In this document: in pieces, positions 31,186 to 47,029 of the stretch
Position numbering within the stretch: position 1 is the stretch's first letter
Layout of the letters: each line of letters begins with the position of its first letter
Source: an uncultured Mediterraneibacter sp.
GTDB taxonomy: Bacteria; Bacillota; Clostridia; Lachnospirales; Lachnospiraceae
Reading direction: 5' to 3'
NCBI GenBank assembly: GCA_944381495.1
Contig: CALWLJ010000001.1
Location: forward strand, 62,001-126,000
Length of the DNA stretch: 64,000 nucleotides
Position numbers and translations under genes: made by a program
Notes under the pieces: generated by a model
Databases searched by the model: none
What the model was told of the DNA's origin: nothing
The model's input: only the letters and a program-made list of their open reading frames with translations

Positions 31186-31208
31186 TCCCGTACGTTGGGG
31201 ATACGGGA
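31186..31208 (+). promoter_or_regulatory. Hairpin before the LRR gene start
   Basis: TCCCGTA at 31186-31192 pairs with TACGGGA at 31202-31208, ending just before the AAGG used for the ATG at 31222. The TTG at 31195 lies in the loop. It may modulate translation initiation. Confidence 0.4.
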
Positions 31209-31221
31209 CAAGGAAAAAAAT

Positions 31222-34200
31222 ATGAAAAGGAAATTTTTAAAGCAAGCACTTGGACTGGTGATCTGTCTGTCTATGGTTTGCCCGCAGGTAATGGTATCGG
31301 CGGCTCCGTTGCAGGAAATGAATGTGAAGACTATACAGGCTGAAGTGCAGAGTACATCAGATGACGGAAATGAACAGGTGACAAAAGTAGCTGAAGGACT
31401 TGTAACTGCTTTAATTGATGGCAAAGCAGCAGAAGGCGAGAGTTTCCAGGCAGCTGTAGAAGCAGCAGGTATCAATGCGGCGGATGTGGAAACGATTGAA
31501 TTCCAGTCTGGTAATGTTACATCAGAAGACCTTGCTTATATTAAGGAAAACTGCGAGGCGCTTGAAACATTCAAACTTAACTTGACAGAGGAACTGACCT
31601 TTGACGCGGGAGCTACTGTATTACCTTCTCGTGCATTCGAGGATATGGAGAGTCTTGAGACAGTTGAACTTGGCGGATTTACAGAACTTGGATCATATTC
31701 TTTTGAAGAAACAAAATCTCTTGCAAATGTATCTATACCAGATGTAGTGAAGGTAGGACCATATGCTTTCATGCAGTCTCCTAGCGATGCTAGCACAGGC
31801 AAGGGAGTGGCTCTTAAGAGCATTGATCTGCCAAATGTAGAGACAATTTCGAATTACGCATTTTCAAATTGCCATGAATTGACAGAAGTTAATATGCCGA
31901 AGGTAGAGAAGATAGACTCAAGAGCCTTTGACGGCAAGAAATTAACGGAGATACATCTTCCTGCAACGATTAAAGAATTAGCAAAAGAAGCCTTCTATTG
32001 TAAAAATGGCACCCAAAAGAAAGAGATTCATGTGACGATAGATAGCATGACTCCGCCACAAATTACTAAATATGCAACACCGTTTACAGGAGCTACACCG
32101 GAATCTACTCTGACGGTTCCAGAAGAAGCATTGGACGCATATATGGCGGATACAAAGTGGTATGATGCAGAAGACCATACCTGGGCAGGCCTGAAGCTGC
32201 CGGAGCAGCAGACTGTTGTAACAGCGAATATCAATGGAACATCATACAATGGCGCGTCACTGGAAAAGGCTGTGGAGAAAGCAGGACTTACTGCCGAGGA
32301 AGTGACATCACTTACCATTGAATCCGGTAAAGTTACTCAGGATGATCTGGCTTATATTACAACGTTAGATACGCTGGAAGATTTCACGATGAATCTGGAC
32401 GGTGACCTGACTCTGATCGGAAAAGATGGCAATGCTACAACCGTACTCAGTGAGGACACAGCTGTGCTTGAATTTGCTGACGCAAAGAGCGGATCCAGTA
32501 AGGGCAGCCTGAGGAACCTGACTCTTGGCGGTATTACAGAGGTTCAGAATGGCGGTCTGGAATCTGATTCCGTAGAAGTCATCAATATGCCTGATGTCGT
32601 GACGGTAGGAAAGAGTGCATTTTCTGGAATGGGATGGCTGGAAGAAGTGGATCTGAGCAGTGCCAAAGAGATTGGTGAGAGTGCTTTCTTTAATTGTACA
32701 AGACTGACAACCCTGACGATGGAGAAGGTTGAGATTCTGAAGAAAGGTGCGTTTAAGTATACGAACTCACTGAAGAAAGTGACATTCCCGGCAACATTGA
32801 AGACAATTGAAAATATTGAGTTTGGTGTAGTAAGCCAGGGAAATAAAAATGGTACAAAGATCACAATGCTTGGTTCCACACCTCCGATAGTAGCGTCAGG
32901 CGCATTTAAGGGTGTAGCAAGCAGCGGTGGAACACAGTCCACTGTAACAGTCCCGGCAGGAGCACTTCAGACTTATGTCAACGATGTTAATGAAAAAGCA
33001 GATGTAACCGGCGTTCTTAAGATTAAAGATACGATCTGGAATAACCTGTATCTGAAAGAAGAAGGAAGCTATCGGATCGACTATGATACGGGAAACAGCT
33101 GGGAAACACAGTATGCATTTGTAAAGGCAGGAGCTGCTCTGACAGAGAAACAGATTCCTACAGCAAATGCAGAAGAAGGCTATGAATTTGCCGGCTGGAA
33201 TACAAAGAAAGACGGCTCCGGCGATTGGATAACAACTGAGACAGCTATTACAAAAGACAATATCAAAGTTTATCCGGTATTCGAAGAAGCGGTTGTTAAT
33301 GTAACCGCGGAAATTAACGGCCAGTCTGTTGGCGGCGAAACGCTGGAAGAAGCTATCACGGCATCTGGAATCGATGCAGGGGATGTGACGTCTATCAAGT
33401 TTGTATCCGGCAATGTGACAAAAGATGATCTTACATATATCAGAGATAACTGTGATGATCTTGAATCACTGGTACTGAATCTGACAGACGGACTGACCTA
33501 TGATAATGGCTCTACCGTACTGCCGATGAAAGCATTTACTAAGATGAGATATCTTAAGAATGTGGAACTGGGCGGATTTACTGAGATTGGTTCGAGGGCA
33601 TTCCAGAATTCCGGAATTGAGACGATCTCCATCCCGGATGTGACGGTCATTAACAGCCAGGCATTCCAGGAATGTACAGCGCTTGAAAGCGTTGATATGC
33701 CAAAGGTTGAGACAATCGGTTCCAGCGCATTCTACTGGACAGACAGTTTGAAGGAAGTAACGCTGCCTGCAAGCATTACAAGTCTGAATGGCTGTGGATT
33801 TGGCGCTACGAAGAATGGTTCCATGGACAACTTCCACCTGATTATGGAGAAGACGACGCCTCCGGAAACCAAAGGAAGAGTTATTGAAGGAGAAGGAACG
33901 GTTACAGTTCCGGCGGGAAGCCTGTCTGCATACCTTGACGAGACAGATTTCAACAAGTACTTTACATCCGAAGGAGATGTCCAGTGGGCAGGACTTTACG
34001 TAGAAGATCCGTCTTACAGCATGGTTACATTCCACGGAACAAATGCAGGCCAGACTGCTTATGCATATGTGGCAAACGACACAGCAATTACAGAGGCTCA
34101 GATGCCGGCATTTACACAGGATGGTTACGTATTGGCAGGATGGAATACAAGCAAGGACGGCTCTGGTGAAGCGCTGAATGTGGGCGATACACTGGATGGC

Positions 34201-36234
34201 AATATGGATGTATATGCTCAGTGGGAAGTAGAAGTGAAGGATACAACAGCTCCTACAGCTCAGATTTCCACGGACGGAAAACTGCAGAACATTGACCAGG
34301 AGAAGCCGTACAATATTAACATCAGCCTGAAGTTCCATGATGATACAGCTCTTGACTATTACGTGCTGAATGACAAGGAGAAGCCGACAGGCATCACAGG
34401 AACATGGGGCGATGGTAATTACCAGAATATCAAGTCCTACCTGAACGAAGGCAACGGCGAGGAAGGCAAGAATACACTGACTGTATATGACAAGGCGGGC
34501 AATTCCACTACATATACATTCTATGTGGATCAGACGAAGCCGGAGCTTGTCGGTGAGTTTGTCATCACACCGGACAATGGACAGATGAGCACATCCAAGA
34601 CGGTTACATTTACAACCTCAGAGCCGATCCAGGTACTGGAAGGCTGGACAGAAGTGGCAGATTCCAACGGAACGCAGTGGCAGAAGGAGTTCACAGAGAA
34701 CTTCAAGGGCGAGATCAAGTTTACGGATATCGCAGGAAATGAATCCGACGCTTATAAATTAGAAGTGAAGCGGATCGAGAATGTGAAGCCGGAAGCAGAG
34801 ATTACCTATTCCAACAACGGACAGCCGACGAACCAGGATGTAGTAGTAACGGTTAAGACAAATGTAGAGTGTCAGACACCGGACGGATGGGAAAGAGTAC
34901 CGGGAAGTGCTAAGAGGAACGAGTTCCAGAAGACATACAGCGAGAATACAACGGAGACAGTTACATTTGTAAGCCTGTCCGGAGTATCTGCAGAGTTTGA
35001 GATCAATGTTACAGGAATTGACAAGGTGGCTCCGGTTATCACGGATGTTGCGATCAGTCCTGAGAACAGTCAGATGAGTACATCCAAGACGGTTACGATT
35101 ACTGCTGATGAGGCGGTACAGTGCCCGGGCGAAGGCTGGACAGAAGTAGAAGGATCTGATGGAACTCAGTGGGCCAAAGTTTATACAGAGGCCAAGAAGG
35201 ACAGCATAACGGTAACAGATATTGCAGGAAATGTATCCGAGAAAGCAAGCTTCGAAGTTAAGAGAATTGAAAATATTGCTCCGACAGCAGAGGTAGCTTA
35301 CTCGAATGACGGTCAGCCTACGAATGAGGATGTGACTGTGATCATTTCCACAAATGTGGAGTGTAATGTTCCGGACGGCTGGGAGAGAGTACCGGGAAGT
35401 GCAAAGAGAAATCAGTTCCAGAAGACATATAGTGAGAATACGGAAGAAACCGTAACACTTACAAGTCTGTCGGGAGTAACGGGAAGCGTAGTTGTTACTG
35501 TTACCGGAATTGATAAAGTGGCTCCTGAAGCGGATGTTGAATATTCAACAACAGAGATCACATCCGGAAGTGTGATCGTTACGATCCGCGCAAATGAACC
35601 GATCCAGACACCGGAAGGCTGGACAAAAGTTGACGATGTTACATTTACAAAGGAGTATACTCATAACGTAGACCGCAACGTCAATATCTATGACCTTGCA
35701 GGAAACGGAAATGATGTAGATATCCGTATCACAAACATTGTTCAGAACAAAGAAGTGACAGTCAGCTATGTGGATGAGGCAACTGGTGAGACGGTAGGAA
35801 TAGAGACAATCTCTGTTGAGGAAGACAGCTATCAGTTCAACACAAGTATTCTGCAGAATATTCCGCAGGGATATGAGATTGTAAATGTCGGTGATACTCT
35901 GATCAATAAGGATGATAATACAGCCGAAGTAAAAGTAAGGATTCCGGCTGACCAGGCTGAGGCAAAACTTGTGATCTGGTGGATGGACGAGTGGGGCATT
36001 CCTCTTACTGATGAAGGTGGAGAGCCCTGGAAGATGGAACTGACCGCCAGAGGAACAGAAGGAGAAAAACATACATTTACAAAGGATGACTGGGAGCTGC
36101 CGGAAGGATATGAATATGTATCCGACACAGACAAATGGCTGGCTGAACAGGACTTTATCGTAAAATATGGAGAGACTCTGGATACATTAAGTATTGCGAT
36201 CTGCCCGGAAGGAACCAGCGGAGTAGGAAGATAA
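31222..36234 (+). CDS. Giant secreted leucine-rich-repeat/Ig-like surface protein
   Basis: A 1670-residue extracellular protein. A signal peptide is at residues 1-27 (KRKFLKQALGLVICLSMV, then VSAAP). Three BspA/LRR_5-type blocks follow, each opened by an ING-type motif and a TSEDLAYIKENC-like element. Two InlB_B-type repeats (YEFAGWNTKKDGSGDW and YVLAGWNTSKDGSGEA) lie between and after the later blocks. The C-terminal 600 residues are alternating Ig-like modules, then a MucBP-like segment (VSYVDEATGETVG). No LPXTG, membrane anchor or SLH domain is seen at the end (EGTSGVGR). ATG 31222 is preferred to TTG 31195 because the signal peptide starts there. Adhesion or host binding is inferred. Confidence 0.88.
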   Translation: MKRKFLKQALGLVICLSMVCPQVMVSAAPLQEMNVKTIQAEVQSTSDDGNEQVTKVAEGLVTALIDGKAAEGESFQAAVEAAGINAADVETIEFQSGNVTSEDLAYIKENCEALETFKLNLTEELTFDAGATVLPSRAFEDMESLETVELGGFTELGSYSFEETKSLANVSIPDVVKVGPYAFMQSPSDASTGKGVALKSIDLPNVETISNYAFSNCHELTEVNMPKVEKIDSRAFDGKKLTEIHLPATIKELAKEAFYCKNGTQKKEIHVTIDSMTPPQITKYATPFTGATPESTLTVPEEALDAYMADTKWYDAEDHTWAGLKLPEQQTVVTANINGTSYNGASLEKAVEKAGLTAEEVTSLTIESGKVTQDDLAYITTLDTLEDFTMNLDGDLTLIGKDGNATTVLSEDTAVLEFADAKSGSSKGSLRNLTLGGITEVQNGGLESDSVEVINMPDVVTVGKSAFSGMGWLEEVDLSSAKEIGESAFFNCTRLTTLTMEKVEILKKGAFKYTNSLKKVTFPATLKTIENIEFGVVSQGNKNGTKITMLGSTPPIVASGAFKGVASSGGTQSTVTVPAGALQTYVNDVNEKADVTGVLKIKDTIWNNLYLKEEGSYRIDYDTGNSWETQYAFVKAGAALTEKQIPTANAEEGYEFAGWNTKKDGSGDWITTETAITKDNIKVYPVFEEAVVNVTAEINGQSVGGETLEEAITASGIDAGDVTSIKFVSGNVTKDDLTYIRDNCDDLESLVLNLTDGLTYDNGSTVLPMKAFTKMRYLKNVELGGFTEIGSRAFQNSGIETISIPDVTVINSQAFQECTALESVDMPKVETIGSSAFYWTDSLKEVTLPASITSLNGCGFGATKNGSMDNFHLIMEKTTPPETKGRVIEGEGTVTVPAGSLSAYLDETDFNKYFTSEGDVQWAGLYVEDPSYSMVTFHGTNAGQTAYAYVANDTAITEAQMPAFTQDGYVLAGWNTSKDGSGEALNVGDTLDGNMDVYAQWEVEVKDTTAPTAQISTDGKLQNIDQEKPYNINISLKFHDDTALDYYVLNDKEKPTGITGTWGDGNYQNIKSYLNEGNGEEGKNTLTVYDKAGNSTTYTFYVDQTKPELVGEFVITPDNGQMSTSKTVTFTTSEPIQVLEGWTEVADSNGTQWQKEFTENFKGEIKFTDIAGNESDAYKLEVKRIENVKPEAEITYSNNGQPTNQDVVVTVKTNVECQTPDGWERVPGSAKRNEFQKTYSENTTETVTFVSLSGVSAEFEINVTGIDKVAPVITDVAISPENSQMSTSKTVTITADEAVQCPGEGWTEVEGSDGTQWAKVYTEAKKDSITVTDIAGNVSEKASFEVKRIENIAPTAEVAYSNDGQPTNEDVTVIISTNVECNVPDGWERVPGSAKRNQFQKTYSENTEETVTLTSLSGVTGSVVVTVTGIDKVAPEADVEYSTTEITSGSVIVTIRANEPIQTPEGWTKVDDVTFTKEYTHNVDRNVNIYDLAGNGNDVDIRITNIVQNKEVTVSYVDEATGETVGIETISVEEDSYQFNTSILQNIPQGYEIVNVGDTLINKDDNTAEVKVRIPADQAEAKLVIWWMDEWGIPLTDEGGEPWKMELTARGTEGEKHTFTKDDWELPEGYEYVSDTDKWLAEQDFIVKYGETLDTLSIAICPEGTSGVGR
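34575..35525 (+). repeat. Two roughly 480-bp direct repeats encoding paired Ig-like modules
   Basis: Blocks starting near 34575 and 35060 encode the same order: a module opening with MSTSKTV and closing with DIAGN, then a module opening with NGQPTN and closing with SLSGV. Shared peptides include DGWERVPGSAKRN and FQKTYSENT. Confidence 0.8.
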
Positions 36235-36548: not shown

Positions 36549-37259
36549 TTGAAACAAATGAGAGTTATGGTCTGTGATGACGAAATGTATGACAGAGGAG
36601 AACTGGTACAGTCTGTGAAGGCAGTCTGGCCGGAGGCCCGGATCGATGTGGCCGGCAGCGGACAGGAAGTGATCCGCAGCATTCAGAAAGGTACAGGGTA
36701 TGACCTGATCTTTCTTGATATTTATATGGATAATGTAGACGGGATCCAGGCAGGTAAATGGATACACGAGAATTTCCCGGAACTGAAAATGGTTTTTGTG
36801 AGCAACAGCAGGGATTTCGGTCCGGAGCTGTTCGCGGTGAACGCTCTCCACTATCTTGTAAAGCCCTGGGAGCAGAAGGATATGGAGGAGATCAGAAGGC
36901 GGTTTGAAGAGAGTGCCCGCAAGAATGCGGTGCTCCATACCGGCATACGGGAAACAGAGGAGATACCTTTTCAGAGGATTTCTTATATAGACAGTGATCA
37001 TAACAACCTGCATATTCATCTGCTGAACGGATCGATCCTCACTGTCAGAGACAGCATTCAGCGATTCATGGAGAAGCTGGACGAACGTTTCCTTCGTATT
37101 AACAGGGGCGTTATCGTCAACATGGAGGCGGTGGAGAAGATGAATACACAGTCCTGTGAGATCGCAGGAGTGACATTTATGCTCAGCCGGAAGACCAGGG
37201 CGGAAAGCAGAAAAAAATATAATGACTATATGTTTGAAGCTGCAATGCGGATCACATAG
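36549..37259 (+). CDS. LytTR-family response regulator
   Basis: A 236-residue AgrA/VirR-like regulator. The receiver domain has the acidic pair in VMVCDDEMYD, the phospho-acceptor Asp57 in DLIFLDIYM, and the conserved Lys in LVKPWEQ near residue 106. A LytTR DNA-binding domain fills residues 130-236 (ISYIDSDHNNLHIHL, FLRINRGVIVNMEAVEKM). The start is TTG 36549 with GAGGTG nine bases upstream; ATG 36558 is possible. It is followed two bases later by its kinase gene and lies upstream of the RiPP-like genes, which it probably controls. Confidence 0.92.
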   Translation: MKQMRVMVCDDEMYDRGELVQSVKAVWPEARIDVAGSGQEVIRSIQKGTGYDLIFLDIYMDNVDGIQAGKWIHENFPELKMVFVSNSRDFGPELFAVNALHYLVKPWEQKDMEEIRRRFEESARKNAVLHTGIRETEEIPFQRISYIDSDHNNLHIHLLNGSILTVRDSIQRFMEKLDERFLRINRGVIVNMEAVEKMNTQSCEIAGVTFMLSRKTRAESRKKYNDYMFEAAMRIT

Positions 37260-37261
37260 AG

Positions 37262-38719
37262 GTGTGCGTGGCGGGGACAGACAGCAGACAGATATATGTC
37301 TGCATACAGTTTTGCGGAATCCTGATACAGGCTCTTCCGATTGTTTTCTTGCTTTTTGTACCTTATGGTATAAGGCAGATGAGAGTGTCCAGAAGGATAT
37401 TAGTACCGGTGATGGCCGCAGGAATAATCCTGGCAGGAACAGCAGAGGCAGTAATATTGTATGACGGAAGCTGTCGGGCAGGAGAAGATGCGGCGGCTTG
37501 CTGGTTATGGGGCAATCTCATTTTATTGTGCATGTTCAGTATTGAGACGGCTGCCTATTTCCTGGCGGTGAAAAAGGAAGCCGGAACCAGGCTTCTGACC
37601 TGGCTGATCGTACTGCATTATGGAACGTTCCTGTATGCAGTGACCGAGACCGTGGAAAAACTCCTCGAGATCCGGGTCTATGGCAGCGGGTTCAGGCCGT
37701 GGTCCACGGTCAGCATTATTATATACGTTATCATAACTGCTATTACTTATCCATTTATATACAGACTGATGAAGCAGCACAGATCTGAACATATGCATAC
37801 ATCCAACCGGAAGAAGCTTTGCATGGTCACTATAATCTCTGTTCTGCTTCTTATATTATACATATGTTCTCTGAGCGCAGAACAGAAGCTGTATTATTTC
37901 CTGAAAGACGGAGCAGGCGAGCTGTGTATCCTGATCTGGATGGCCAGCATGATCCTGATGGATATATTCGCATATCACTTCTATCTGCGCAGGCTGCAGA
38001 CAGCAGAAAAGCAGATAGAAGAACTGGAGCGGACCAGCGCCATGCTGGCTGCTGCGGAAAGTCAACAATATCAGTCATTCAGTGACCGGCTCGGCGAAGA
38101 CCGGAGGATGTACCACAATATGAGACATCATTTCCGGACAATGGCTTCGCTGGCAGACAGAAAACAGTATGACCGTCTTGAGGATTACCTGAAAAGGTAT
38201 CTGAAAGAATGGGAAAAGATTGCCGACAGAGATATCTGCGGCAATCCAATGTTCAATGTGATCCTGGGATATTACTTCTCTCTTGCGGAGAAGAAAGGAA
38301 TCCGGGTGGAAACAGACATCAGTATCAAAGAATACTATCCTTTCGATATAACAGATATGACAGTTCTCCTTGGAAATGCCATGGAGAATGCCGTTGAGGC
38401 ATGTGAGGACTCGGGAGCGGACCAGCCGTTTATCCGGATCATGCTCAGACAGGTGAAGCAGTCCTTCCTTATTAAAATAGAGAACTGCATGGCCCCGGAG
38501 GGGGAAGAGGGCATGAAAAAGAAGTTCAGGAAGAGTCCGGGAGCCGAAAACGGCGGCACAGCCGGCCCTGTAAGGCGGGACCGCGCGGGCGGGGATGGGA
38601 TCGCCAGTATGAGAGCGGTCGCCAAGAAATACGACGGCAGTCTGGAATACCGGACAGAAGGAGAGACATTTATCCTTCGGATAGTATTGAATATACCTGA
38701 CAAAACAGCAGCAGTATAG
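37262..38719 (+). CDS. GHKL-domain sensor histidine kinase (AgrC/VirS-like)
   Basis: A 485-residue kinase. About six membrane helices fill residues 10-240, a coiled coil follows (LRRLQTAEKQIEELERT), then the phospho-acceptor region MYHNMRHHFRTMASLA near residues 281-296. The N-box is LLGNAMENAVEACED near 373-387 and the G-box is GDGIASMRAVAKKYDG near 445-460. The start is GTG. This topology is used to sense peptides or small signals at the membrane. No AgrB or AgrD-like gene is adjacent. Confidence 0.9.
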   Translation: MCVAGTDSRQIYVCIQFCGILIQALPIVFLLFVPYGIRQMRVSRRILVPVMAAGIILAGTAEAVILYDGSCRAGEDAAACWLWGNLILLCMFSIETAAYFLAVKKEAGTRLLTWLIVLHYGTFLYAVTETVEKLLEIRVYGSGFRPWSTVSIIIYVIITAITYPFIYRLMKQHRSEHMHTSNRKKLCMVTIISVLLLILYICSLSAEQKLYYFLKDGAGELCILIWMASMILMDIFAYHFYLRRLQTAEKQIEELERTSAMLAAAESQQYQSFSDRLGEDRRMYHNMRHHFRTMASLADRKQYDRLEDYLKRYLKEWEKIADRDICGNPMFNVILGYYFSLAEKKGIRVETDISIKEYYPFDITDMTVLLGNAMENAVEACEDSGADQPFIRIMLRQVKQSFLIKIENCMAPEGEEGMKKKFRKSPGAENGGTAGPVRRDRAGGDGIASMRAVAKKYDGSLEYRTEGETFILRIVLNIPDKTAAV

Positions 38720-38730
38720 CTGGAAAGGGG

Positions 38731-39063
38731 ATGATGCTTTTGAAACTGAAAGACGGCCTGATCCTGCGGGAGGTTGCCGGACAGTACGTGATCGTGCCGA
38801 CCGGGAAGCGGGTGCAGGAAGTGACCAGTATTGTTTACATCTCTTCTTCAGCAGCCTACCTCTGGGACTACATGAAGGATCATGAGTTCGAGAAAGAGGA
38901 TCTGGTGCAGAGGATCATGGAGCACTACACCGGTGTGACGGAGGAAAAGGCGGCGGAAGATGTGGAGAAATTCCTGAAAATACTGTCGGACAACAACATC
39001 ATGGATGATGGAATCAAGCGAGGCAGGGTATTTGTCCGGATGCCCAAGAAGGATGAATCATGA
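38731..39063 (+). CDS. PqqD-like RiPP recognition protein
   Basis: A 110-residue PqqD-fold protein. Such proteins bind the leader of a ribosomal peptide and present it to a radical SAM enzyme. The pattern is a beta-hairpin start (LKDGLILREVAGQYVIVP), SSSAAYLWDYM, then a winged-helix-like C-terminus with VEKFLKILSDNNIMDD. AAAGGGG lies immediately upstream, so the true start may be ATG 38734 or TTG 38740 rather than ATG 38731. Its last four bases overlap the radical SAM gene. PQQ synthesis itself is not suggested, as no other pqq gene is nearby. Confidence 0.88.
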   Translation: MMLLKLKDGLILREVAGQYVIVPTGKRVQEVTSIVYISSSAAYLWDYMKDHEFEKEDLVQRIMEHYTGVTEEKAAEDVEKFLKILSDNNIMDDGIKRGRVFVRMPKKDES

Positions 39064-40127
39064 GTACGGAATTTGAACCTGCATGCCGGAGAATGGAATG
39101 GCTGGATCCCTTTTATAAATCTGTCTGGGAAAAGGCATTCGCAGATGCGATCCCTATATCCGGAACTTTTGAGCTTACCCCGCGGTGTAACTTCAATTGC
39201 CGGATGTGTTATGTCCATCTGAAGCCGGATCAGATCCCGAAATACGGAAGAGAACTGACGGCGAAAGAGTGGATCCGGATCGCAGAAGAAGCGAAAGAAG
39301 CCGGAACTACCTGGTTGTGCGTTACCGGCGGAGAGCCGCTGATGCATCCGGAGTTCGAGACGATCTGGAAGGAACTGTGCTCCATGGGATTCTTCATCAC
39401 TTTGCAGACAAACGCTTCCCTTATCAAAGGGAAAACGGCAGATCTGCTGGCGAAGTATCCGCCGAGAGGGGCGAAGATCACCCTCTATGGATCCAGCGAT
39501 GAAGTCTACGAAAAAGTATGCCGCGTCAAGCACGGATTTACTGACGCAGACGCCGGGATCCGCGCTCTGTGCGAAATGAAGATTCCGGTACAGCTGATCA
39601 GTACGGTGATCCGGCAGAACGAAGATGATATAAAGAGGATGGCGTTCTACGCATACATCCACAGACTCCCATGGATGGCAACCGGAGGGATCAAAGCCTC
39701 CTGCAGAGGAGCCGAGAGCGAGGCCCGGCAGGTCCGTGTGGAGAATAAACTGGAAGAACAGAAAAGAGAAGAAATCAAACGGAGGCTGGAAAAAGTCCCG
39801 GTTGATATAAACAGAAAACCCTGTACATACTGCAAGGACTACCGCCTGGGATACTGGGTGGTGTGGAATGGTGATATGAGGTTCTGCAGCTTTTTGAATG
39901 AACCGAATATCCCGGTGAGAGACATGCCGTTTCAGAAGGCCTGGGAAGAGCTGATCCGATATGAGGAAGCTCTGGAATGGCCTGAGGAATGCAGGACATG
40001 CGAGGCACAGAAAGTGTGCTTCAAGTGCGCCGGGACTCTGGCGGCCGAGTGCGGGAGTCCGCATCGGGTGACAGAGGAGTATTGCGGCAGGGTTAGGAAG
40101 ATTTATGATGAAATGAAAGGTGAGTGA
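39060..40127 (+). CDS. Radical SAM/SPASM peptide maturase
   Basis: A 355-residue radical SAM enzyme. The CxxxCxxC cluster is Cys43, Cys47 and Cys50 in TPRCNFNCRMCYVHL; WLCVTGGEPLMHPEF supplies the SAM-binding GGE. The C-terminal SPASM region has cysteines for auxiliary iron-sulfur clusters (CTYCKDYRLGYWVVWNGDMR, CSFLNEP, CRTCEAQKVCFKCAG, and a final EEYC). It should modify the peptide bound by the PqqD-like partner. Its start overlaps that gene by four bases. The type of linkage formed is unknown. Confidence 0.92.
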   Translation: MSTEFEPACRRMEWLDPFYKSVWEKAFADAIPISGTFELTPRCNFNCRMCYVHLKPDQIPKYGRELTAKEWIRIAEEAKEAGTTWLCVTGGEPLMHPEFETIWKELCSMGFFITLQTNASLIKGKTADLLAKYPPRGAKITLYGSSDEVYEKVCRVKHGFTDADAGIRALCEMKIPVQLISTVIRQNEDDIKRMAFYAYIHRLPWMATGGIKASCRGAESEARQVRVENKLEEQKREEIKRRLEKVPVDINRKPCTYCKDYRLGYWVVWNGDMRFCSFLNEPNIPVRDMPFQKAWEELIRYEEALEWPEECRTCEAQKVCFKCAGTLAAECGSPHRVTEEYCGRVRKIYDEMKGE

Positions 40128-40131
40128 AAAT

Positions 40132-40506
40132 ATGAGTAATGGAAGTAATTATGTACAAGCACCTTATGAAGCGGTTGAGGCAAATGCAATATCTACGTAT
40201 GCTGGCATACCATCAGGAGCCACAATAGTAAGGGGAATTTATTATAAGTGGGGGGATGGTGGTTTTACTAGTCGAGGGTGGATGTCTAATATTGAAGGAT
40301 CTCCTACTAATATTTATCCGGAATTTAGCGTACTGCAAGAAAATGTGAGAGACCAAGCTGTAGCTCAGTATGTTGCTACCAAGGGTGATTTGGATGATGT
40401 ATTTTTCTATTGGAGTCAGCACTATACTTTGGAGGGATGGGATAATTTTTACAATGCAGTTGGTGTGGACTCTGGATGTATGGATGTTGACCATAGCCAG
40501 TCCTAA
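40132..40506 (+). CDS. Candidate RiPP precursor or radical SAM substrate
   Basis: A 124-residue protein I do not recognise. It is rich in aromatic residues, with a single Cys (116). Residues 91-95 read FFYWS and residues 103-108 are Trp-Asp-Asn-Phe-Tyr-Asn, two tandem aromatic-x-Asn triplets. There is no signal peptide or double-glycine motif. ATG 40132 follows AAAGG by about 11 bases; an in-frame GTG 40120 would add four residues and overlap the radical SAM gene. Its position directly after the maturase suggests it is the substrate. The gene is AT-rich compared with the maturase. Confidence 0.6.
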   Translation: MSNGSNYVQAPYEAVEANAISTYAGIPSGATIVRGIYYKWGDGGFTSRGWMSNIEGSPTNIYPEFSVLQENVRDQAVAQYVATKGDLDDVFFYWSQHYTLEGWDNFYNAVGVDSGCMDVDHSQS

Positions 40507-40518
40507 TATCATTATTGT

Positions 40519-41316
40519 ATGAAAATATATTCAATAGCCAATATAAAGATGGGGGTTATCCGAGTCTGTCTAAGTGAAGTGTGGATGAAAAAATTTTTTC
40601 TTAGAGATCAAACTGAAAATGGAAACTTATTAGTGATAACATATGCACAAAACGTTATTACAGAGTATGGCGTAAATATTATGAATATCCCTAACTTTAG
40701 TGATAAAATACTTTTTAATGATTACTGTATTGCAATAGTAAATGACGATTGGTCCAAAGCTGAGTTAATTACTAACAGTACTTCTATCCAATATAATCAT
40801 TATAAAGATATTGTTTTAAAAATCTTTTATACCCATGCTGTCCAGCGCCACATGATCCAACTTCACAGCTCCCTGATTTCCACCAACAACCGCGGTCTGA
40901 TGTTCCTTGGTCCATCCGGCATCGGCAAGACCACCCAGGCCGAGCTCTGGAACAAGTACCGCGATGCGCTGATCATCAACGGAGACATCGTATTTGTCCA
41001 GGAAACGGAAGACGCCTTCCTTGGCTGGGGTACTCCATGGCATGGTTCTTCACCCTACTGTGAGAATACCAGTGTGCCTGTCCACGCCATGATCGTGTTG
41101 AAGCAGGCGACGGAGAATTCCATTCGGGAGCTGACAGGATTCGAGAAAGTATCTGAGGTGTCCAACAGTGTGTTTTATCCGCGATGGCTGGAGAACGGTA
41201 TGGAACTCTGCCTGGAAACTCTGGATCATCTCCTGTCGAAGATCCCGGTCTATGAACTGTCCTGCCGTCCGGATGAGGACGCCGTGCGGCTGGTAGAGAA
41301 AACAGTATTTAAATGA
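40519..41316 (+). CDS. HPr-kinase-like P-loop protein of the RiPP cluster
   Basis: A 265-residue protein related to HPr kinase/phosphorylase-like proteins found in some RiPP clusters. Walker A is GPSGIGKTT (residues 131-139), and INGDIVFVQET is the following acidic strand. The C-terminus (LSCRPDEDAVRLV) matches the family ending. No clear ribosome binding site precedes ATG 40519; ATG 40549 is possible. About the first 105 codons are markedly AT-rich and the rest GC-rich, with a sharp switch near 40835, so the gene appears mosaic. A phosphorylation role on the precursor is inference. Confidence 0.75.
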   Translation: MKIYSIANIKMGVIRVCLSEVWMKKFFLRDQTENGNLLVITYAQNVITEYGVNIMNIPNFSDKILFNDYCIAIVNDDWSKAELITNSTSIQYNHYKDIVLKIFYTHAVQRHMIQLHSSLISTNNRGLMFLGPSGIGKTTQAELWNKYRDALIINGDIVFVQETEDAFLGWGTPWHGSSPYCENTSVPVHAMIVLKQATENSIRELTGFEKVSEVSNSVFYPRWLENGMELCLETLDHLLSKIPVYELSCRPDEDAVRLVEKTVFK

Positions 41317-41323
41317 AAAAGGG

Positions 41324-41384
41324 AAATCTCATTCCCATATACCGTGAGGAATCTCGGCGGGATGTGGGAATGAGATTTTATTGT
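41324..41384 (+). terminator. Hairpin between the HPrK-like and exporter genes
   Basis: AAATCTCATTCCCATAT (41324-41340) pairs with ATGTGGGAATGAGATTT (41362-41378), then TATTG. It may end the biosynthetic transcript or let only part of it read into the exporter gene. Confidence 0.7.
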
Positions 41385-41410
41385 GTAAGTAAAGGAGCGC
41401 GGCAGGTTCT

Positions 41411-43171
41411 ATGAGCGATATCAGGCGGATCATCCGCAGGATCAAAGAGGGAAGGCTGAAGCAGCTGATCGCGGAGCTGCTCTGGATGTACGCCTATGTG
41501 CGGAAATACTGGCTGTTGATCGGCGTATATGTTCTGCTTGGAGCGTCGGGATCGGTTCTTGCATTGGGGACGTCCATGGTGAGTCGGGATCTTGTGGACG
41601 CAGTGACAGGAGTGAATTCTCTGGAGATCGTAGGCGTTGCCGCCACTTATGTCGGCGTGGGTGTTGCGCAAATATTCATTAATGCGGTGAAGTCCAGGCT
41701 GTCTTTGAAGGTCCGCCTTAAGGTGACCAATGAGATCCGGGCGGATATATATGAGCAGGTATTGCGGACCAACTGGGAGTCTCTGGCGAAGTATCGTTCC
41801 GGTGACTTGCTTTACCGGGTGAACGGTGACGCGGGAATGGTAGCGAATACGATCCTTACCTTTCTGCCTAACGTGGTGACTACACTGATCAGCTTCGGCG
41901 GCGCTTTTATTGTTGTTATGCAGAATGACCCGTGGATGGCTCTGATCGCCCTGATGGGTGCGCCTATTTCTTTCCTGACTTCCCGGTACTCGGCGAAGCG
42001 GATGCGGGACTTCCAGCGGGACAATCAGAATGTAGCCAGCGACCGGACTGTATTCGATCAGGAGACCTTCCAGAATCTGCAGTTTATCAAGGCTTTCGGG
42101 ATGCTGGACCGGGTGACGGAGAAGTTCCACCGGATCCAGCAGGAGACGGTGGATATTGCGCTGAAGCAGAATAAGTTCCAGCAGACCATGACCATCGCTA
42201 CCTCTCTTGTAGGACAGGCGGTGGGCTATGCCTGTTATGGATTTGCCGCTTTCCGCCTCTGGCAGGGGCAGATCAGCTATGGAACCATGACCATGTTTGT
42301 ATCCATGGCAGGATCGCTCCGGGGATCATTCAGCAGTATCCTGAACCTGATGCCCCAGGTTATCCGTGCCGGCATCAGTGCGGAGCGGATCATGGAGATC
42401 ACCGGGCTCCCGAGAGATTCCATGGAGAATCAGGAGGAGGCGGAGGAGATCAAGCGCCGTGGGAAAGAGGAAGGTGTCTATGTACATATGGACTCGGTAG
42501 ACTTCGCCTACGAGGAAGAGAAGTGGATCTACAGGGATGCAGACTTCCGGGCGGAGCCGAGGGAGATCGTTGCTCTCATCGGTCCTTCCGGACAGGGGAA
42601 GACGACCACGCTGAATCTGATACTGGGGCTATATCATCCCCAGAAAGGGGAGATCACCATAGGGAACCCCAGCGGGATGGAGCTTCCGGCCTCTTCGGCT
42701 ACCCGATGTATGTTCAGTTATATTCCCCAGGGGAATACTATGTTTTCCGGTACGATTGCCGACAATATGCGCATGGTGAAGCCGGATGCCACAGATGAGG
42801 AGATCCGGTCAGCCCTTGAGGCTGCATGTGCCTGGGAGTTCGTGGAGAAGCTGGATCACGGTATTGACACGGAGGTACGGGAGAGAGGTACCCGTTTTTC
42901 CGAAGGACAGAAGCAGAGACTGTCCATTGCCCGGGCCCTGCTGGCGGATGCTCCGGTGATGATCCTGGATGAGGCCACCAGTGCGCTGGATGTAGCGACC
43001 GAGAGACGGGTCCTTCGGAGGATCATTAAGAAAGAGCCCCACCGTACAGTGATCGTGGCGGCTCACCGTCCCAGTGTCTTCTCCATGTGCAGCCGGGTGT
43101 ACAAGATCGGGGAAGGACGTGTGTCTGAGGTAGACGAGGAAGGGATCCGTCAGTTCCTGGACGAGTTCTGA
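41411..43171 (+). CDS. ABC exporter (fused membrane and ATPase domains)
   Basis: A 586-residue half-transporter of the peptide or lipid exporter type. Six membrane helices fill residues 30-320. The ATPase domain has Walker A GPSGQGKTT (about 394-402), a signature variant FSEGQKQRLSIARAL (about 497-511), Walker B VMILDEATSALD (about 517-528) and the H-loop VAAHRPSV. No C39 peptidase domain is present, so any leader removal must occur elsewhere. AAAGGAG precedes ATG 41411. It likely exports the matured product of the preceding genes. Confidence 0.9.
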   Translation: MSDIRRIIRRIKEGRLKQLIAELLWMYAYVRKYWLLIGVYVLLGASGSVLALGTSMVSRDLVDAVTGVNSLEIVGVAATYVGVGVAQIFINAVKSRLSLKVRLKVTNEIRADIYEQVLRTNWESLAKYRSGDLLYRVNGDAGMVANTILTFLPNVVTTLISFGGAFIVVMQNDPWMALIALMGAPISFLTSRYSAKRMRDFQRDNQNVASDRTVFDQETFQNLQFIKAFGMLDRVTEKFHRIQQETVDIALKQNKFQQTMTIATSLVGQAVGYACYGFAAFRLWQGQISYGTMTMFVSMAGSLRGSFSSILNLMPQVIRAGISAERIMEITGLPRDSMENQEEAEEIKRRGKEEGVYVHMDSVDFAYEEEKWIYRDADFRAEPREIVALIGPSGQGKTTTLNLILGLYHPQKGEITIGNPSGMELPASSATRCMFSYIPQGNTMFSGTIADNMRMVKPDATDEEIRSALEAACAWEFVEKLDHGIDTEVRERGTRFSEGQKQRLSIARALLADAPVMILDEATSALDVATERRVLRRIIKKEPHRTVIVAAHRPSVFSMCSRVYKIGEGRVSEVDEEGIRQFLDEF

Positions 43172-43286
43172 TCCTGTGAAATATTGTACCAGGCAGCTGG
43201 CAGGAGAAAACGGAAAGGAACAGAGTTACCCGGAGGAAGCGGGAAAGAGGAGAATATCAACAGGAGAACACGACAGAGGAAAGAAT

Positions 43287-44117
43287 ATGGGTATGAGAAT
43301 TGTCAGGACCGTAGTGGTCGTTATTACAATTTTATCTTTTGCATTATTCGGGATAACCGAAGTGATCCGGCTGGTGAACCGGGATACCAGCCTGCCGGAG
43401 ATCACAAGCGACAGGGAGGTTCTTGAGATTTCCTGTGATTATACGGAGGAGCAGCTCCTGGAAGGGCTGACGGCAAGCGATGAGGATGATGGAGATCTGA
43501 CGTCCCAGATCATTGCGGGCTCATTTTCCAGATTTATTGACAAGGGTGTCTCCAATATCACGTACGTGGTGTTTGATTCGTCTGACCAGCCGGCCACCCT
43601 TACACGAGAGGTGCGTTTTACCGACTACCATTCTCCCAGATTTACACTGACCGAGCCGCTGGTATTTGCAGAGGAGGAAGGCAGCTATACCGAGGCTATG
43701 AACCGGATCGGCGCACAGGATATGCTGGATGGTGACCTGAAGGACTGGATCACTCAGACGGAAACGGATCTGAACTACCAGAGAGCCGGCAGCTATACCA
43801 TGACGGTAGAGGTCAGCAACAGCTTCGGTGATACTTCTACGGTGGGACTCCCGGTCCATGTAGTCAGTGCGGAGAGAAGAACGATGGATATTGAACTCAG
43901 TACTTCGATCGTGTATATCAGCACCGGCGGCAGCATTGATCCGGATTCCTACGTGCAGCGTGTGACAGATGCGCAGGGAAATGAAGCAGATGCGGGGAGG
44001 GTGAATGTCTCTTCCAATGTGGATACGCAGACGCCGGGCGTCTATGAGATACATTATGAAGTTTCCGATGGCGGCAGTACAGGGGAGACCTGGCTGACGG
44101 TCATTGTAGAAGGATAG
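43287..44117 (+). CDS. Membrane-anchored protein with Ig-like (DUF5011-type) repeats
   Basis: A 276-residue protein with one N-terminal membrane helix (residues 4-27) and an extracellular remainder of three Ig-like repeats. Each repeat has the pattern DxxDGDLT near its start (SDEDDGDLTSQI, AQDMLDGDLKDWI) and a closing strand such as YVVFDSSDQPATLTREVRF. ATG 43287 is chosen for its GAGGAAAG site; the frame from GTG 43176 adds 37 polar residues with no homology. It starts the operon with two BY-kinases and the phosphatase, so it may act at the EPS export site. Confidence 0.75.
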   Translation: MGMRIVRTVVVVITILSFALFGITEVIRLVNRDTSLPEITSDREVLEISCDYTEEQLLEGLTASDEDDGDLTSQIIAGSFSRFIDKGVSNITYVVFDSSDQPATLTREVRFTDYHSPRFTLTEPLVFAEEEGSYTEAMNRIGAQDMLDGDLKDWITQTETDLNYQRAGSYTMTVEVSNSFGDTSTVGLPVHVVSAERRTMDIELSTSIVYISTGGSIDPDSYVQRVTDAQGNEADAGRVNVSSNVDTQTPGVYEIHYEVSDGGSTGETWLTVIVEG

Positions 44118-44127
44118 GAGGGACAGG

Positions 44128-45534
44128 ATGAACCGGGAATTATTCCGACTGGATGAGATCAGCTGGAGGGGTCTGTGCATGGATCTGCTCCGCAATGCCT
44201 GGATGATCCTGATGGCGGCGGCAGCCGTATGGTTCGCTGCCACAGGACTCTACAATATTACATATGAACCGGCTTACACGGCGTCTGCTACTCTGGTGGT
44301 GACTGTACGCGGGGAGTCCAGTGCTTACTCTTCGCTTTCGGTGGCGTCGTCTATGGCTGATGTGTTCGGACAGGTGTTCCAGAGCGAAGCACTCAGGAAC
44401 AGGATCATTGAGGATGTGGGAGAGGAGATCCAGGGGACGATCACCTGTGCGCCCATCGAGGAGACGAATCTGCTGGTGCTCAGTACTACCTGTCCGGATC
44501 CGAGGCAGGCATACCTGTTTATCAATTCTGCCCTGCAGCACTATGAGGAGGTGGCCGGAGATGTATTTGCCAATGCGTCTCTTCAGATCGTACAGGAGCC
44601 GGAGGTGCCTTCCGAACCGTCCAATTCTTCCTGGCTGCTGACCAGAAGGACCCTTCTGGCCCTGGGCGGAGCATTTGCGATGGCCTGCCTGATCTGTCTG
44701 TTCTATGTACTGCGGTTTACAGTGAAGAATGCGGTCTGTGCTTCTCGTCAGCTGGACGGGAGGATCCGCGGGACGATTCCGTTTGAGCGGAAGAGCGGGG
44801 CACTTCTGCAGGAAGGATCTATATGGAAGCAGGAGAAATCAAAGCAGGCGCTGCTCCTTACTTCTCCGCTTGTCAGCATGGACTTCGCTGAGGCACAACG
44901 CCGTGCAGAGGCAAGGACGGAGGCGCATATGCGCCGGAAGGGCCAGCAGGTCCTGCTCGTTACCAGTGTGACGGAGAATGAAGGGAAATCAACCATAGCA
45001 GCGAATATCGCTCTCGCTATGGCAGAAAAGCATAAGAAGGTACTGGTGGTGGACGGAGACCTGCGTCAGCCGTCCCAGTATAAAATATTTGAGCGCAGGG
45101 AGCGCCGCGGCAGTTCTCTGGAAAATGTGCTGAAGGACGGCACGGACTGGCATGATGTGGTCATGTACAACGAGAAGGACAGTATCAGCCAGATCTTCCA
45201 GTTCCGGGCCGCGTCTGATCCTTCCCGTCTCATGAACCGGCTTGCTGAAACCGGTCTGGTGGAAGAGTGGAAGCAGGAGTTTGACTATATTGTGATAGAC
45301 TGTTCTCCGACTGCGGTGTCTACAGACGCGGAGATCTGGATAGCATTGGCCGATACGGTGCTTCTCGTTGTGCGGGAGGACTGGGCTGATGTACGTGTGA
45401 TCAACGATACGGTGGATATGATATGGCAGAGCGGAAAGGACTTTGCAGGATTCGTACTCAATGCATTCCACCGGGAGTGGGCTGCCGGAAGCTCAGAATA
45501 CGGATACGGCGGTTACGGACAGGAGAAAGGATAG
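44128..45534 (+). CDS. Wzz/BY-kinase fusion protein, copy 1
   Basis: A 468-residue fusion of a chain-length (Wzz-type) domain with two membrane helices (about residues 23-42 and 171-193) and a cytoplasmic bacterial tyrosine kinase domain. Walker A is SVTENEGKSTIAANIA (about 281-296), Walker A' is VLVVDGDLRQPSQY and Walker B is YIVIDCSPT. The C-terminal tyrosine tail is short (SSEYGYGGYGQEKG). It regulates polysaccharide polymerisation and export through autophosphorylation. Ribosome binding site GGAGGGA is ideal. Confidence 0.9.
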   Translation: MNRELFRLDEISWRGLCMDLLRNAWMILMAAAAVWFAATGLYNITYEPAYTASATLVVTVRGESSAYSSLSVASSMADVFGQVFQSEALRNRIIEDVGEEIQGTITCAPIEETNLLVLSTTCPDPRQAYLFINSALQHYEEVAGDVFANASLQIVQEPEVPSEPSNSSWLLTRRTLLALGGAFAMACLICLFYVLRFTVKNAVCASRQLDGRIRGTIPFERKSGALLQEGSIWKQEKSKQALLLTSPLVSMDFAEAQRRAEARTEAHMRRKGQQVLLVTSVTENEGKSTIAANIALAMAEKHKKVLVVDGDLRQPSQYKIFERRERRGSSLENVLKDGTDWHDVVMYNEKDSISQIFQFRAASDPSRLMNRLAETGLVEEWKQEFDYIVIDCSPTAVSTDAEIWIALADTVLLVVREDWADVRVINDTVDMIWQSGKDFAGFVLNAFHREWAAGSSEYGYGGYGQEKG

Positions 45535-45538
45535 GGAT

Positions 45539-47029
45539 ATGGAAGAACAGAGAAATGATATTGTGTCAAATGCCAGAGAGGACGAGATGGAGATCGATCT
45601 TGTACTGCTTATTGGCGCCATGTGGAAAGGTTTTCTCCGGTTCTGGTGGCTGGTTCTTGCGCTGATCGTGATCGGAGCAGCCGGATTTTCCATATTTCAG
45701 GCTGTGGGATATGAACCCATGTACCGCAGCAGCGCTACTTTCACCGTTTCAACCGGGGACGGTTCAAGCGGAAGCTACAGTTTTTACTACAACAGCAGCA
45801 CGGCTGATCAGATGTCGAGGACCTTTCCCTACATCCTGAACAGCAGCTTCTTCCGGAGCACTCTGCTGGAGCAGCTGGGGACGGATACACTGAATGGAAC
45901 GATCTCGGCGGAGACGATAACAGACTCTAACGTGGTCACCATGACAGTGGAGAGTTCAAGTGCGGAGGATGCGGTGACGATCCTGAATGCCGCTCTTGAG
46001 ATATATCCGGATACGGCCCGTTTTGTGTTGGGAGATATCAGCTTTAACTATCTGAACGAGCCGGAGACGCCGGGAGCACCATACAATCAGATGAGTATGC
46101 CACGTTCTGTTGCACTGGGCGGCGGCGCCGGTGCATTCGTGGCACTCTGTTTCCTTGGAATTACGGCTCTCTTCCGAAAGACAGCCAGGAATCCGGAAGA
46201 AATGAAGAAAGTCACCAGCCTCCGCTGTCTGGCTTCCATACCTCATGTCAGGTTCAAGGCGAGGAAGAAGCAGAAGAATACCAGTATCCTTGTCTGGGAC
46301 AATAAGGTCCCATACAGCTACAGGGAGAGTCTCCGCGCGCTGCAGATCCGTCTGGAGAAGGAGCTGAAGAAGAGAAGCGGAAAGATACTCCTTGTTACAA
46401 GTACGTCTGCAGGAGAGGGCAAGTCCTCTCTGGCAGTGAATCTGGCGGAAATGTTTGCGGAGAGAGGACAGGAAGTCCTCCTGATCGACGGAGACCTGCG
46501 CAAGCAGGCAGACGCAAGAATGCTCCGGCTTCGGAATGGATTCTCCCTGGCGGATGCGGCGAAAGGCGATAAGGACCCGGAGGAACTGCTCCGGAAAGTG
46601 CACAAGACTTCTCTCTGGTTCCTGGGAGGGACGAGAGCGATCCGGCAGCCGGCGCCTGCTCTTACCAGCCGGAAAACCGTAGACTTTATCCGGAAGGTAC
46701 GGGAGAAGATGGACTATATTATCATTGACACACCTCCATGCGAGATGTTCCAGGATACGGGAATCCTGGCAGACCAGGCGGATGGGATCTTATATGTTGT
46801 AAAGCATGATTTCGCATCCCAGCAGAAGATATGGGAGGGTATCTCTTCCCTGAGAGGCAGAAAAGCAGCATTCCTCGGGTATGTGTTTAATGATTATCCG
46901 GAGTCAGTGAGCGAATACGGGTATGGAAGGTATGGCGGCTACGGAAATTACGGATACCGGAAGAACCGTTACAGGTACGGTTACGGACAGGAAGCTCCGG
47001 CCGGGGAGGAGAACAAGGGCCATGATTGA
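45539..47029 (+). CDS. Wzz/BY-kinase fusion protein, copy 2
   Basis: A 496-residue paralogue of the preceding kinase. Two membrane helices frame the Wzz-like part; Walker A is TSTSAGEGKSSLAVN, Walker A' is VLLIDGDLRKQAD and Walker B is YIIIDTPP. The C-terminal tail carries about ten tyrosines (YGYGRYGGYGNYGYRKNRY), far more than copy 1. ATG 45539 is chosen since GGATAGGG precedes it and it lies five bases after the upstream stop; a longer in-frame extension overlaps copy 1. Kinase pair and phosphatase form one unit. Confidence 0.9.
   Translation: MEEQRNDIVSNAREDEMEIDLVLLIGAMWKGFLRFWWLVLALIVIGAAGFSIFQAVGYEPMYRSSATFTVSTGDGSSGSYSFYYNSSTADQMSRTFPYILNSSFFRSTLLEQLGTDTLNGTISAETITDSNVVTMTVESSSAEDAVTILNAALEIYPDTARFVLGDISFNYLNEPETPGAPYNQMSMPRSVALGGGAGAFVALCFLGITALFRKTARNPEEMKKVTSLRCLASIPHVRFKARKKQKNTSILVWDNKVPYSYRESLRALQIRLEKELKKRSGKILLVTSTSAGEGKSSLAVNLAEMFAERGQEVLLIDGDLRKQADARMLRLRNGFSLADAAKGDKDPEELLRKVHKTSLWFLGGTRAIRQPAPALTSRKTVDFIRKVREKMDYIIIDTPPCEMFQDTGILADQADGILYVVKHDFASQQKIWEGISSLRGRKAAFLGYVFNDYPESVSEYGYGRYGGYGNYGYRKNRYRYGYGQEAPAGEENKGHD

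Follow-up and report, generated by a model that had tools for sequence, protein, structure and literature searches.

We analyzed a 64-kb stretch of DNA from an uncultured Mediterraneibacter sp. (the window), in which a LytTR regulator, a GHKL kinase, a PqqD protein, a radical SAM/SPASM enzyme, a protein of 124 aa, an HprK/PEPCK-fold protein, and an MsbA-like exporter follow one another in this order on the + strand. An earlier note on this DNA had described this gene set as a candidate system for a ribosomally synthesized and post-translationally modified peptide (RiPP), and both the genes and their order were found as described. The operon extends beyond the segment covered by that note and continues with genes for an Ig-like protein, two proteins of the Wzz/AAA_31 type, and CpsB. 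The gene of the 124-aa protein, the putative substrate, and the first part of the kinase gene appear to have been swapped between strains as one block of low G+C content (GC). This cassette exchange and the downstream Wzz/AAA_31 module are what the present analysis adds. The features that carry the finding are listed below; coordinates are positions within the window, and every listed gene lies on the + strand.

38731 to 39063, + strand: PqqD-like RiPP recognition protein (PF05402, E = 1.3e-11)
39060 to 40127, + strand: radical SAM enzyme (PF04055) whose C-terminal cysteines are of the SPASM type
40132 to 40506, + strand: putative substrate of 124 aa, of a family found beside the maturases and without a sequence match in Pfam, NCBIfam, or PDB
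40132 to 40203, + strand: leader-like N-terminus of the substrate, residues 1 to 24 (predicted local distance difference test, pLDDT, below 50 at residues 1-4 and 6-24)
40136 to 40824, + strand: apparently exchanged cassette, substrate gene plus the first 102 kinase codons (blastn gap, identity drop, GC dip)
40519 to 41316, + strand: HprK/PEPCK-fold kinase-like protein, with an N-domain hypervariable to 40824 and a conserved P-loop domain from 40825
41411 to 43171, + strand: MsbA-like ABC exporter (ABC_membrane and ABC_tran; best NCBIfam match MsbA_rel, under its cut-off)

Relatives were collected in a single scan of genome contigs with the radical SAM protein, which gave 34 loci and, with the window, 35. 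By their NCBI names, 21 of the 34 relatives belong to Lachnospiraceae and 6 to Oscillospiraceae, and the family is absent for 7. The earlier note had proposed a neighbourhood comparison around the maturase, and this comparison revealed that the family of the protein at 40132 is conserved there, directly after the radical SAM gene in all 32 loci with enough sequence (of 35 including the window). Substrate, kinase, and exporter occurred together in 30 of the 30 loci having more than 5 kb downstream.

The exchange was seen most directly when the window was compared with the locus of Candidatus Mediterraneibacter stercoripullorum (L004). The PqqD protein, the radical SAM enzyme, the C-terminal half of the kinase, and the exporter were 98%, 97%, 98%, and 99% identical, respectively, whereas the substrate was 25% and the N-terminal half of the kinase 15% identical (28% and 21% in pairwise alignment). 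In blastn the flanks were 94-98% identical and positions 40136-40824 had no match. DNA identity fell from ~95% to ~20-50% inside the block, and the edges were abrupt. On the left, the edge lies immediately past the start codon of the substrate gene; on the right it lies at 40825, the first base of kinase codon 103, and there it coincides with a family-wide change point that was found independently: in the conservation of 29 kinase rows, the best single change point was after residue 102, with a mean pairwise identity of 0.18 before it and 0.72 after it.

Base composition followed the same borders. The GC of the kinase N-half was lower than that of the C-half in 28/28 loci (means 33.8% versus 51.4%), and the GC of the substrate gene was lower than that of the radical SAM gene in 25/28 (39.6% versus 48.5%). 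These 28-row comparisons omit L005 and L007, whose kinase frames measure 186 and 198 aa, and L010, L015, L017, L036, and L037, which lie at contig ends. At third codon positions, the mean GC (GC3) was 28 for the substrate and 33 for the kinase N-half, versus 54 for the radical SAM gene and 58 for the kinase C-half. The GC3 values correlated at 0.89 between kinase C-half and exporter, 0.65 between substrate and kinase N-half, 0.39 between the two kinase halves, and 0.30 between substrate and radical SAM gene. Two HprK-like kinases from other systems had no such GC3 drop (N-half versus C-half 39.3 versus 33.5 and 37.6 versus 33.7). The drop was small (29.0 versus 34.4) in a second, related system in the window's own genome (the C2 copy; radical SAM enzyme 45% identical, own substrate of 119 aa), because the entire C2 locus is AT-rich. 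As a separate observation, the two kinase halves of L005 (9393-10225) seemingly lie in different frames, and this may be a broken kinase or an assembly error.

It could be argued that nothing was exchanged, and that the substrate and the kinase N-half merely evolve fast or that the assemblies are chimeric. Many loci are indeed labelled as metagenome-assembled genomes (MAGs), and the kinase N-half is highly diverged everywhere: its identities approach those obtained with shuffled sequences (mean 26.8%), with pairwise identities of N-halves and substrates coming partly from short overlaps (for example, L021/L035), so that the means from this method are rough. However, flanks of 94-98% DNA identity with abrupt edges, a breakpoint that equals the family change point, and a GC step in all 28 loci, including An-series strains without a MAG label (L006, L022, L023, L030, and L033), speak against it, as does the tree conflict between the substrate and the exporter or radical SAM enzyme described below. 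We therefore regard this explanation as barely plausible. The alignment scores of the N-halves exceeded 95% of shuffles in 88% of the pairs, indicating that the N-domain is one diverged family.

In approximately unbiased (AU) tests, the substrate data rejected a clade of the window and L004 (p 0.0045). Conversely, the group formed by the substrates of the window, L008, L011, and L025, which was picked after viewing the substrate alignment, was rejected by the exporter (p 1e-46) and the radical SAM data (2e-6). Substrate identity was 31.9% between close loci (exporter identity at least 85%, 45 pairs) and 30.9% between distant ones (below 65%, 228 pairs), and the corresponding values for the kinase N-half were 26.3% and 24.4%. 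The association between substrate and kinase N-half persisted after controlling for the radical SAM enzyme (0.28-0.37), also with three groups removed, and the observed value was reached in 0 to 5 of 2000 permutations.

We conclude that this operon probably serves the modification and export of a RiPP-like product, with a strain-specific cassette of substrate and kinase N-half being replaced by recombination. The operon, its gene families, and the replacement in one close pair are observed, together with a fitting family-wide pattern and the matched breakpoint. From sequence we infer every biochemical step considered below, as well as any service of this diversity in competition or recognition.

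Several results weigh against this conclusion. The direct breakpoints rest on the window and L004, since no other pair this close was found, and L004 and many other loci are metagenome assemblies. The kinase N-halves do not reject a clade of the window and L004 in the AU test (p 0.46). Radical SAM identity also scarcely tracks that of the exporter (63.7% in close versus 61.0% in distant pairs); the radical SAM enzyme is thus nearly as exporter-independent, and some exchanges were therefore larger than the cassette, seemingly often reaching farther left than in the window and L004. The right edge of the exchange looks constant in the sequences compared. The substrate is also associated with the radical SAM enzyme when the kinase N-half is controlled (0.37; 0/2000, full set); this value drops to 0.12-0.16 (42 to 220 of 2000) when L030-L035 and further groups are removed. 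The substrates of the window, L008, L011, and L025 are 58-65% alike and their kinase N-halves 15-23%, a result that rejects strict one-to-one pairing between the two. Among the 397 genomes of the family sample, the cassette DNA matched only the window's own. Finally, the kinase has INGD where HprK has a double Asp, so that its kinase activity is putative.

The earlier note had taken the protein at 40132 as the substrate of a RiPP-like system, which is well supported by the synteny, the conserved motifs, and an N-terminus that resembles a leader. Its frame starts with the ATG at 40132, and AAAGGTGAG lies just ahead, inside the 3' end of the radical SAM gene. In an alignment of 33 rows including the C2 copy (A1), M1, Y12, G44, and C116 were invariant and W40, W50, and W94 near-invariant. 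In a second alignment, Y12 was present in 31/32 substrates and V, I, or L at position 15 in 32/32, and 29/32 had Y-x-x-[VIL] within the first 60 residues. The family shares the motif W..GG[F/I/V/Y]TGxGW and one invariant Cys close to the C-terminus; 26/32 substrates have a single Cys, and the last Cys is 2-10 residues before the C-terminus. The structural model, of moderate confidence only (pLDDT 71), has two strands (residues 29-33 and 36-41) that end in the W..GG.TGxGW motif, and helices at 58-110, which suggests a leader followed by a small folded domain. The predicted fold had no structural match in PDB or BFVD, and because the model is merely moderate, we do not claim it as new. In L067 (10916-12838), a PqqD gene is directly followed by the gene for a 101-aa member of the substrate family, with no radical SAM gene; this pair sits behind a frame that by eye resembles an integrase, possibly as a remnant or a mobile cassette.

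The PqqD and radical SAM genes overlap by 4 bases. The radical SAM enzyme has CX3CX2C at residue 43, CX12GX4C at 258, CX2CX5CX2C at 311, and C342, and CX3CX2C together with the SPASM-type cysteine set was kept in 32-33 of 33 full-length rows. By these motifs it is a radical SAM/SPASM maturase, and Pfam itself calls no SPASM. The expected SPASM pattern is CX2CX5CX3C, in place of which the window enzyme has CX2CX5CX2C.

The model of the kinase-like protein (pLDDT 91.6) matched PEPCK and HprK chains in structure, and its fold and a P-loop, GPSGIGKT at residue 131, fit the HprK/PEPCK superfamily. The Pfam family Hpr_kinase_C scored 17.4 bits against a gathering score of 33.3, so that it is not an HPr kinase/phosphorylase proper by this measure. 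With Pfam falling short of its threshold, the HprK-like call rests on the predicted structure.

On these grounds, the PqqD protein would hold the flexible N-terminus of the substrate at Tyr-x-x-Val/Ile/Leu, a binding that we infer from the sequences. The radical SAM/SPASM enzyme would then modify the substrate, most likely at the Cys close to its C-terminus or at the W..GG[F/I/V/Y]TGxGW motif. The N-domain of the kinase may touch the variable substrate body, and the HprK/PEPCK-fold protein may phosphorylate the substrate or otherwise spend ATP on it; this action is suggested because LppK, an HprK-like RiPP kinase, phosphorylates a Ser of its precursor (main text of PMC13381572). The MsbA-like ABC protein, in which Pfam and NCBIfam call no peptidase domain, would export the modified substrate, and the module of Ig-like, Wzz/AAA_31, and CpsB proteins may serve release or display of the product. 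Recombination in the conserved flanks would replace the low-GC cassette of the substrate gene and 102 kinase codons and so produce strain-specific versions. In the simplest reading, the unswapped enzymes use the conserved parts of the substrate (leader, motif, and Cys), and the swapped half of the kinase makes contact with the variable body.

The remaining features of the operon are as follows.

36549 to 37259, + strand: LytTR response regulator (Pfam Response_reg and LytTR)
37262 to 38719, + strand: GHKL sensor kinase (HATPase_c_5, E = 2e-13)
41323 to 41381, + strand: long hairpin in the gap between kinase and exporter, terminator- or attenuator-like (folding energy, alignment)
43176 to 44117, + strand: Ig-like surface-type protein (Bact_surface_Ig-like, E = 4.5e-18)
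44128 to 45534, + strand: first Wzz plus AAA_31 (CpsC/CpsD-like) protein (domain matches)
45443 to 47029, + strand: second Wzz-like plus AAA_31 protein (Wzz score slightly below cut-off; true start probably later)
46923 to 47747, + strand: CpsB/CapC-like protein (PF19567, E = 6e-49; true start probably ~47022)

The regulators, which the earlier note had counted as part of the system, are present in the window but are not fixed in the family. At E 1e-4, a LytTR relative was near 22/35 loci and a GHKL relative near 15/35, some loci being short upstream; at E 1e-10 the counts were 15/35 and 14/35. L057, L063, L065, and the C2 copy instead have a His_kinase-type sensor upstream. With GHKL and LytTR genes adjacent, the modified peptide could be a signal and this pair its receptor, as in agr. 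In the agr specificity groups of Staphylococcus, the substrate gene is exchanged with half of a neighbour gene between conserved flanks, and the swap described here recalls them. However, the split gene of agr encodes the receptor, whereas the gene split here encodes a kinase-fold protein, with the sensor left unswapped. Such signalling is disfavoured because the LytTR regulator is 100% and the GHKL kinase 99% identical between the window and L004 while the substrate has been replaced, and some loci have other regulators; we consider it quite improbable.

Between kinase and exporter, positions 41314-41410 fold at -39.4 kcal/mol (z -6.3), with a hairpin of 59 bases. Among 30 loci examined, 13 had a hairpin in this gap, 11 had overlapping genes, and 6 others had a gap. 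Alignment of the 13 hairpins, which were picked for possessing one and leave out the 6 further gap loci, gave a consensus stem of 21 pairs with two-sided changes at 10 pairs. The exact pattern of the hairpin occurs at a single site in the genome, and comparison with Rfam gave sub-threshold, chance-like matches only. The hairpin may throttle exporter expression. In L004 (10266-10500), an insertion of ~235 bases that the window lacks separates the hairpin from the exporter; it is probably a small mobile repeat, because pieces related to it recur in the window's genome, in 7 further stretches.

Wzz/AAA_31 proteins, usually two, follow the exporter in 28 of the 30 loci with more than 5 kb downstream, L022 and L028 being the exceptions. 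The Ig-like protein, with relatives in 24 loci including the window, often precedes this pair; its true start is probably ~43287, because most relatives start aligning there. CpsB follows the pair in 15 loci, where the stretch extends far enough. Such linkage would suit a surface component whose alleles phages or host immunity diversify like serotypes, and a low-GC exchanged block and a downstream module with a separate history would suit it too. On the other side, the substrate has neither a domain nor an anchor recognized by Pfam or NCBIfam. Scans of 20 window proteins, including three of the operon's own, and of 20 proteins sampled across eight other stretches called no glycosyltransferase. 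The operon is therefore unlike an ordinary capsule locus, in which glycosyltransferases stand beside Wzz/AAA_31/CpsB. We find surface display doubtful. Farther upstream, the window has a PglD_N/APH protein at 27667 and an acyltransferase at 29704. Immediately upstream of the operon, a BspA-type leucine-rich-repeat protein of 1679 aa (31195-36234) has a relative in L004 (88%) and none in the remaining loci, several of which have little upstream sequence.

The substrate profile, with the own genome counted, matched 3/41 relatives, 8/58 genomes of the genus, 11/299 genomes sampled from the family, and 2/398 from the phylum; these genomes overlap the contigs of the relative scan. Patchy occurrence in the genus, family, and phylum, two copies in one genome, high allelic diversity, an own exporter, and two-component regulators would fit a narrow-spectrum, bacteriocin-like factor, with the co-swapped kinase N-half giving specificity or protecting the producer. 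However, the swapped block has no separate immunity gene, the sole co-swapped part being half of an enzyme-like protein, and no toxin-like family match was found in Pfam or NCBIfam. Antagonism of this kind is rather unlikely in our view.

Sources of new cassettes were considered as well. In the own genome (assembly 91% complete), the substrate profile matched only the window and C2 copies, and a local reservoir of silent cassettes is therefore not supported. A phage or plasmid origin was likewise rejected: the radical SAM scan of viral contigs gave no relative and the kinase profile only four weak ones, and tblastn against phages and plasmids gave merely distant radical SAM proteins (below 60% identity) and three distant kinases, one in a cluster resembling those of linear polyphosphorylated peptides (LPP). 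In tblastn, contig C30 of the own genome (L055, 3299-12613) had a third PqqD, HprK-like, and radical SAM set of different layout, with, by eye, a signal-peptidase-like protein ahead and proteins of 1659 aa (surface-type) and 309 aa between. In the Butyrivibrio fibrisolvens plasmid pNP243 (L081, 5614-7637), an HprK-like protein, PqqD, and an S24/S26 peptidase occur together near nucleotidyltransferase and polysaccharide genes, in what looks like an LPP-type cluster.

Returning to cassette replacement by recombination, its use may be exchangeable specificity: the substrate gene would recombine together with only the recognition half of the kinase, the catalytic half and the export machinery remaining where they are, and the alleles would be strain-specific tokens in competition, recognition, or escape from phage or host. 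We put this forward tentatively, giving it slightly less than an even chance. The family offers a natural series of domain swaps, in which one conserved P-loop domain and exporter are combined with numerous different pairs of substrate and kinase N-half, so that substrate recognition by a RiPP kinase can be tested directly with exchanged halves. Should the alleles mediate competition or phage escape, strain typing in gut communities would gain a polymorphic trait. By analogy, the block replacement resembles the swapping of serotype genes in bacteria.

Among known systems, the operon agrees with RiPP clusters in the broad sense by a precursor gene beside modifying enzymes (32/32), a PqqD protein, and a leader-like N-terminus. 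Sactipeptides and ranthipeptides are defined by several core Cys for thioether links, unlike the mostly single-Cys substrates here; a single thioether stays compatible. The SynChlorMet cassette joins a radical SAM/SPASM enzyme with an HprK-like protein. The best NCBIfam match of the kinase was its ScmC (E = 1.8e-4), and ScmF was second best for the radical SAM enzyme. However, ScmC, ScmE, and ScmF scored 20.9 of 125, 62.2 of 400, and 76.6 of 400 bits, all far below cut-off, and the window operon has one radical SAM gene and another substrate.

The LPP systems share more. Their core, according to the main text of Popov et al. (2026, PMC13381572), includes a RiPP recognition element (RRE), an HprK-like kinase, and an MsbA-like exporter, and all three occur here, the RRE as a discrete protein. 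LPP precursors are 35-200 aa long, with a conserved N-terminus, a variable remainder, and a Tyr-containing leader motif, and LPP clusters lie in capsule loci, as the window operon has Wzz/CpsB-type neighbours. The RRE motif quoted there, [Y/W]xxPx[L/V/I/F/A], resembles Y12 and the V, I, or L three residues on, with Val, Ile, or Leu replacing Pro. However, the consensus here is Yxx[V/I]xA and not the LPP leader YxxPxVLxHQxIxFETxxS. The window operon has a radical SAM/SPASM enzyme, and the term 'radical SAM' is absent from that main text. A scan of window proteins between 25832 and 63437 (short frames outside the scan) called no SipW-like peptidase or NTP transferase. Its substrate has a conserved motif, a Cys, and a predicted folded part, and its kinase gene is split by the apparent exchange.

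HprK kinases are also typical of paeninodin-type lasso clusters (main text of PMC13381572), which share an RRE protein and an HprK-like kinase with the window. The PqqD protein had a weak match to the NCBIfam lasso PqqD family (E = 2e-4, 21.3 of 80 bits), and no lasso B2 peptidase or macrolactam synthetase was called among proteins scanned near the locus. The earlier note had found no class to name for this combination. This holds against the classes compared here, whose defining genes or motifs were not found and whose NCBIfam equivalogs scored far below cut-off; the shared PqqD/RRE, radical SAM, and HprK-like parts notwithstanding, membership in any of them is very improbable. The claim needs qualifying, since the RRE, the HprK-like kinase, and the MsbA-like exporter are core components of LPP systems and an HprK kinase is a typical member of lasso clusters of the paeninodin type; it is in the radical SAM enzyme and the substrate family that the window operon differs. 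Neither such a gene combination nor a cassette exchange in a RiPP kinase gene was found among the literature matches listed (titles and abstract openings, with subscription papers and bioRxiv mostly outside). The LPP and paeninodin-type lasso clusters, with defining genes that were not found at the locus, are the closest kin of an operon in which gut Clostridia combine radical SAM peptide chemistry with an HprK-type kinase and with a module of the Wzz/AAA_31/CpsB kind.

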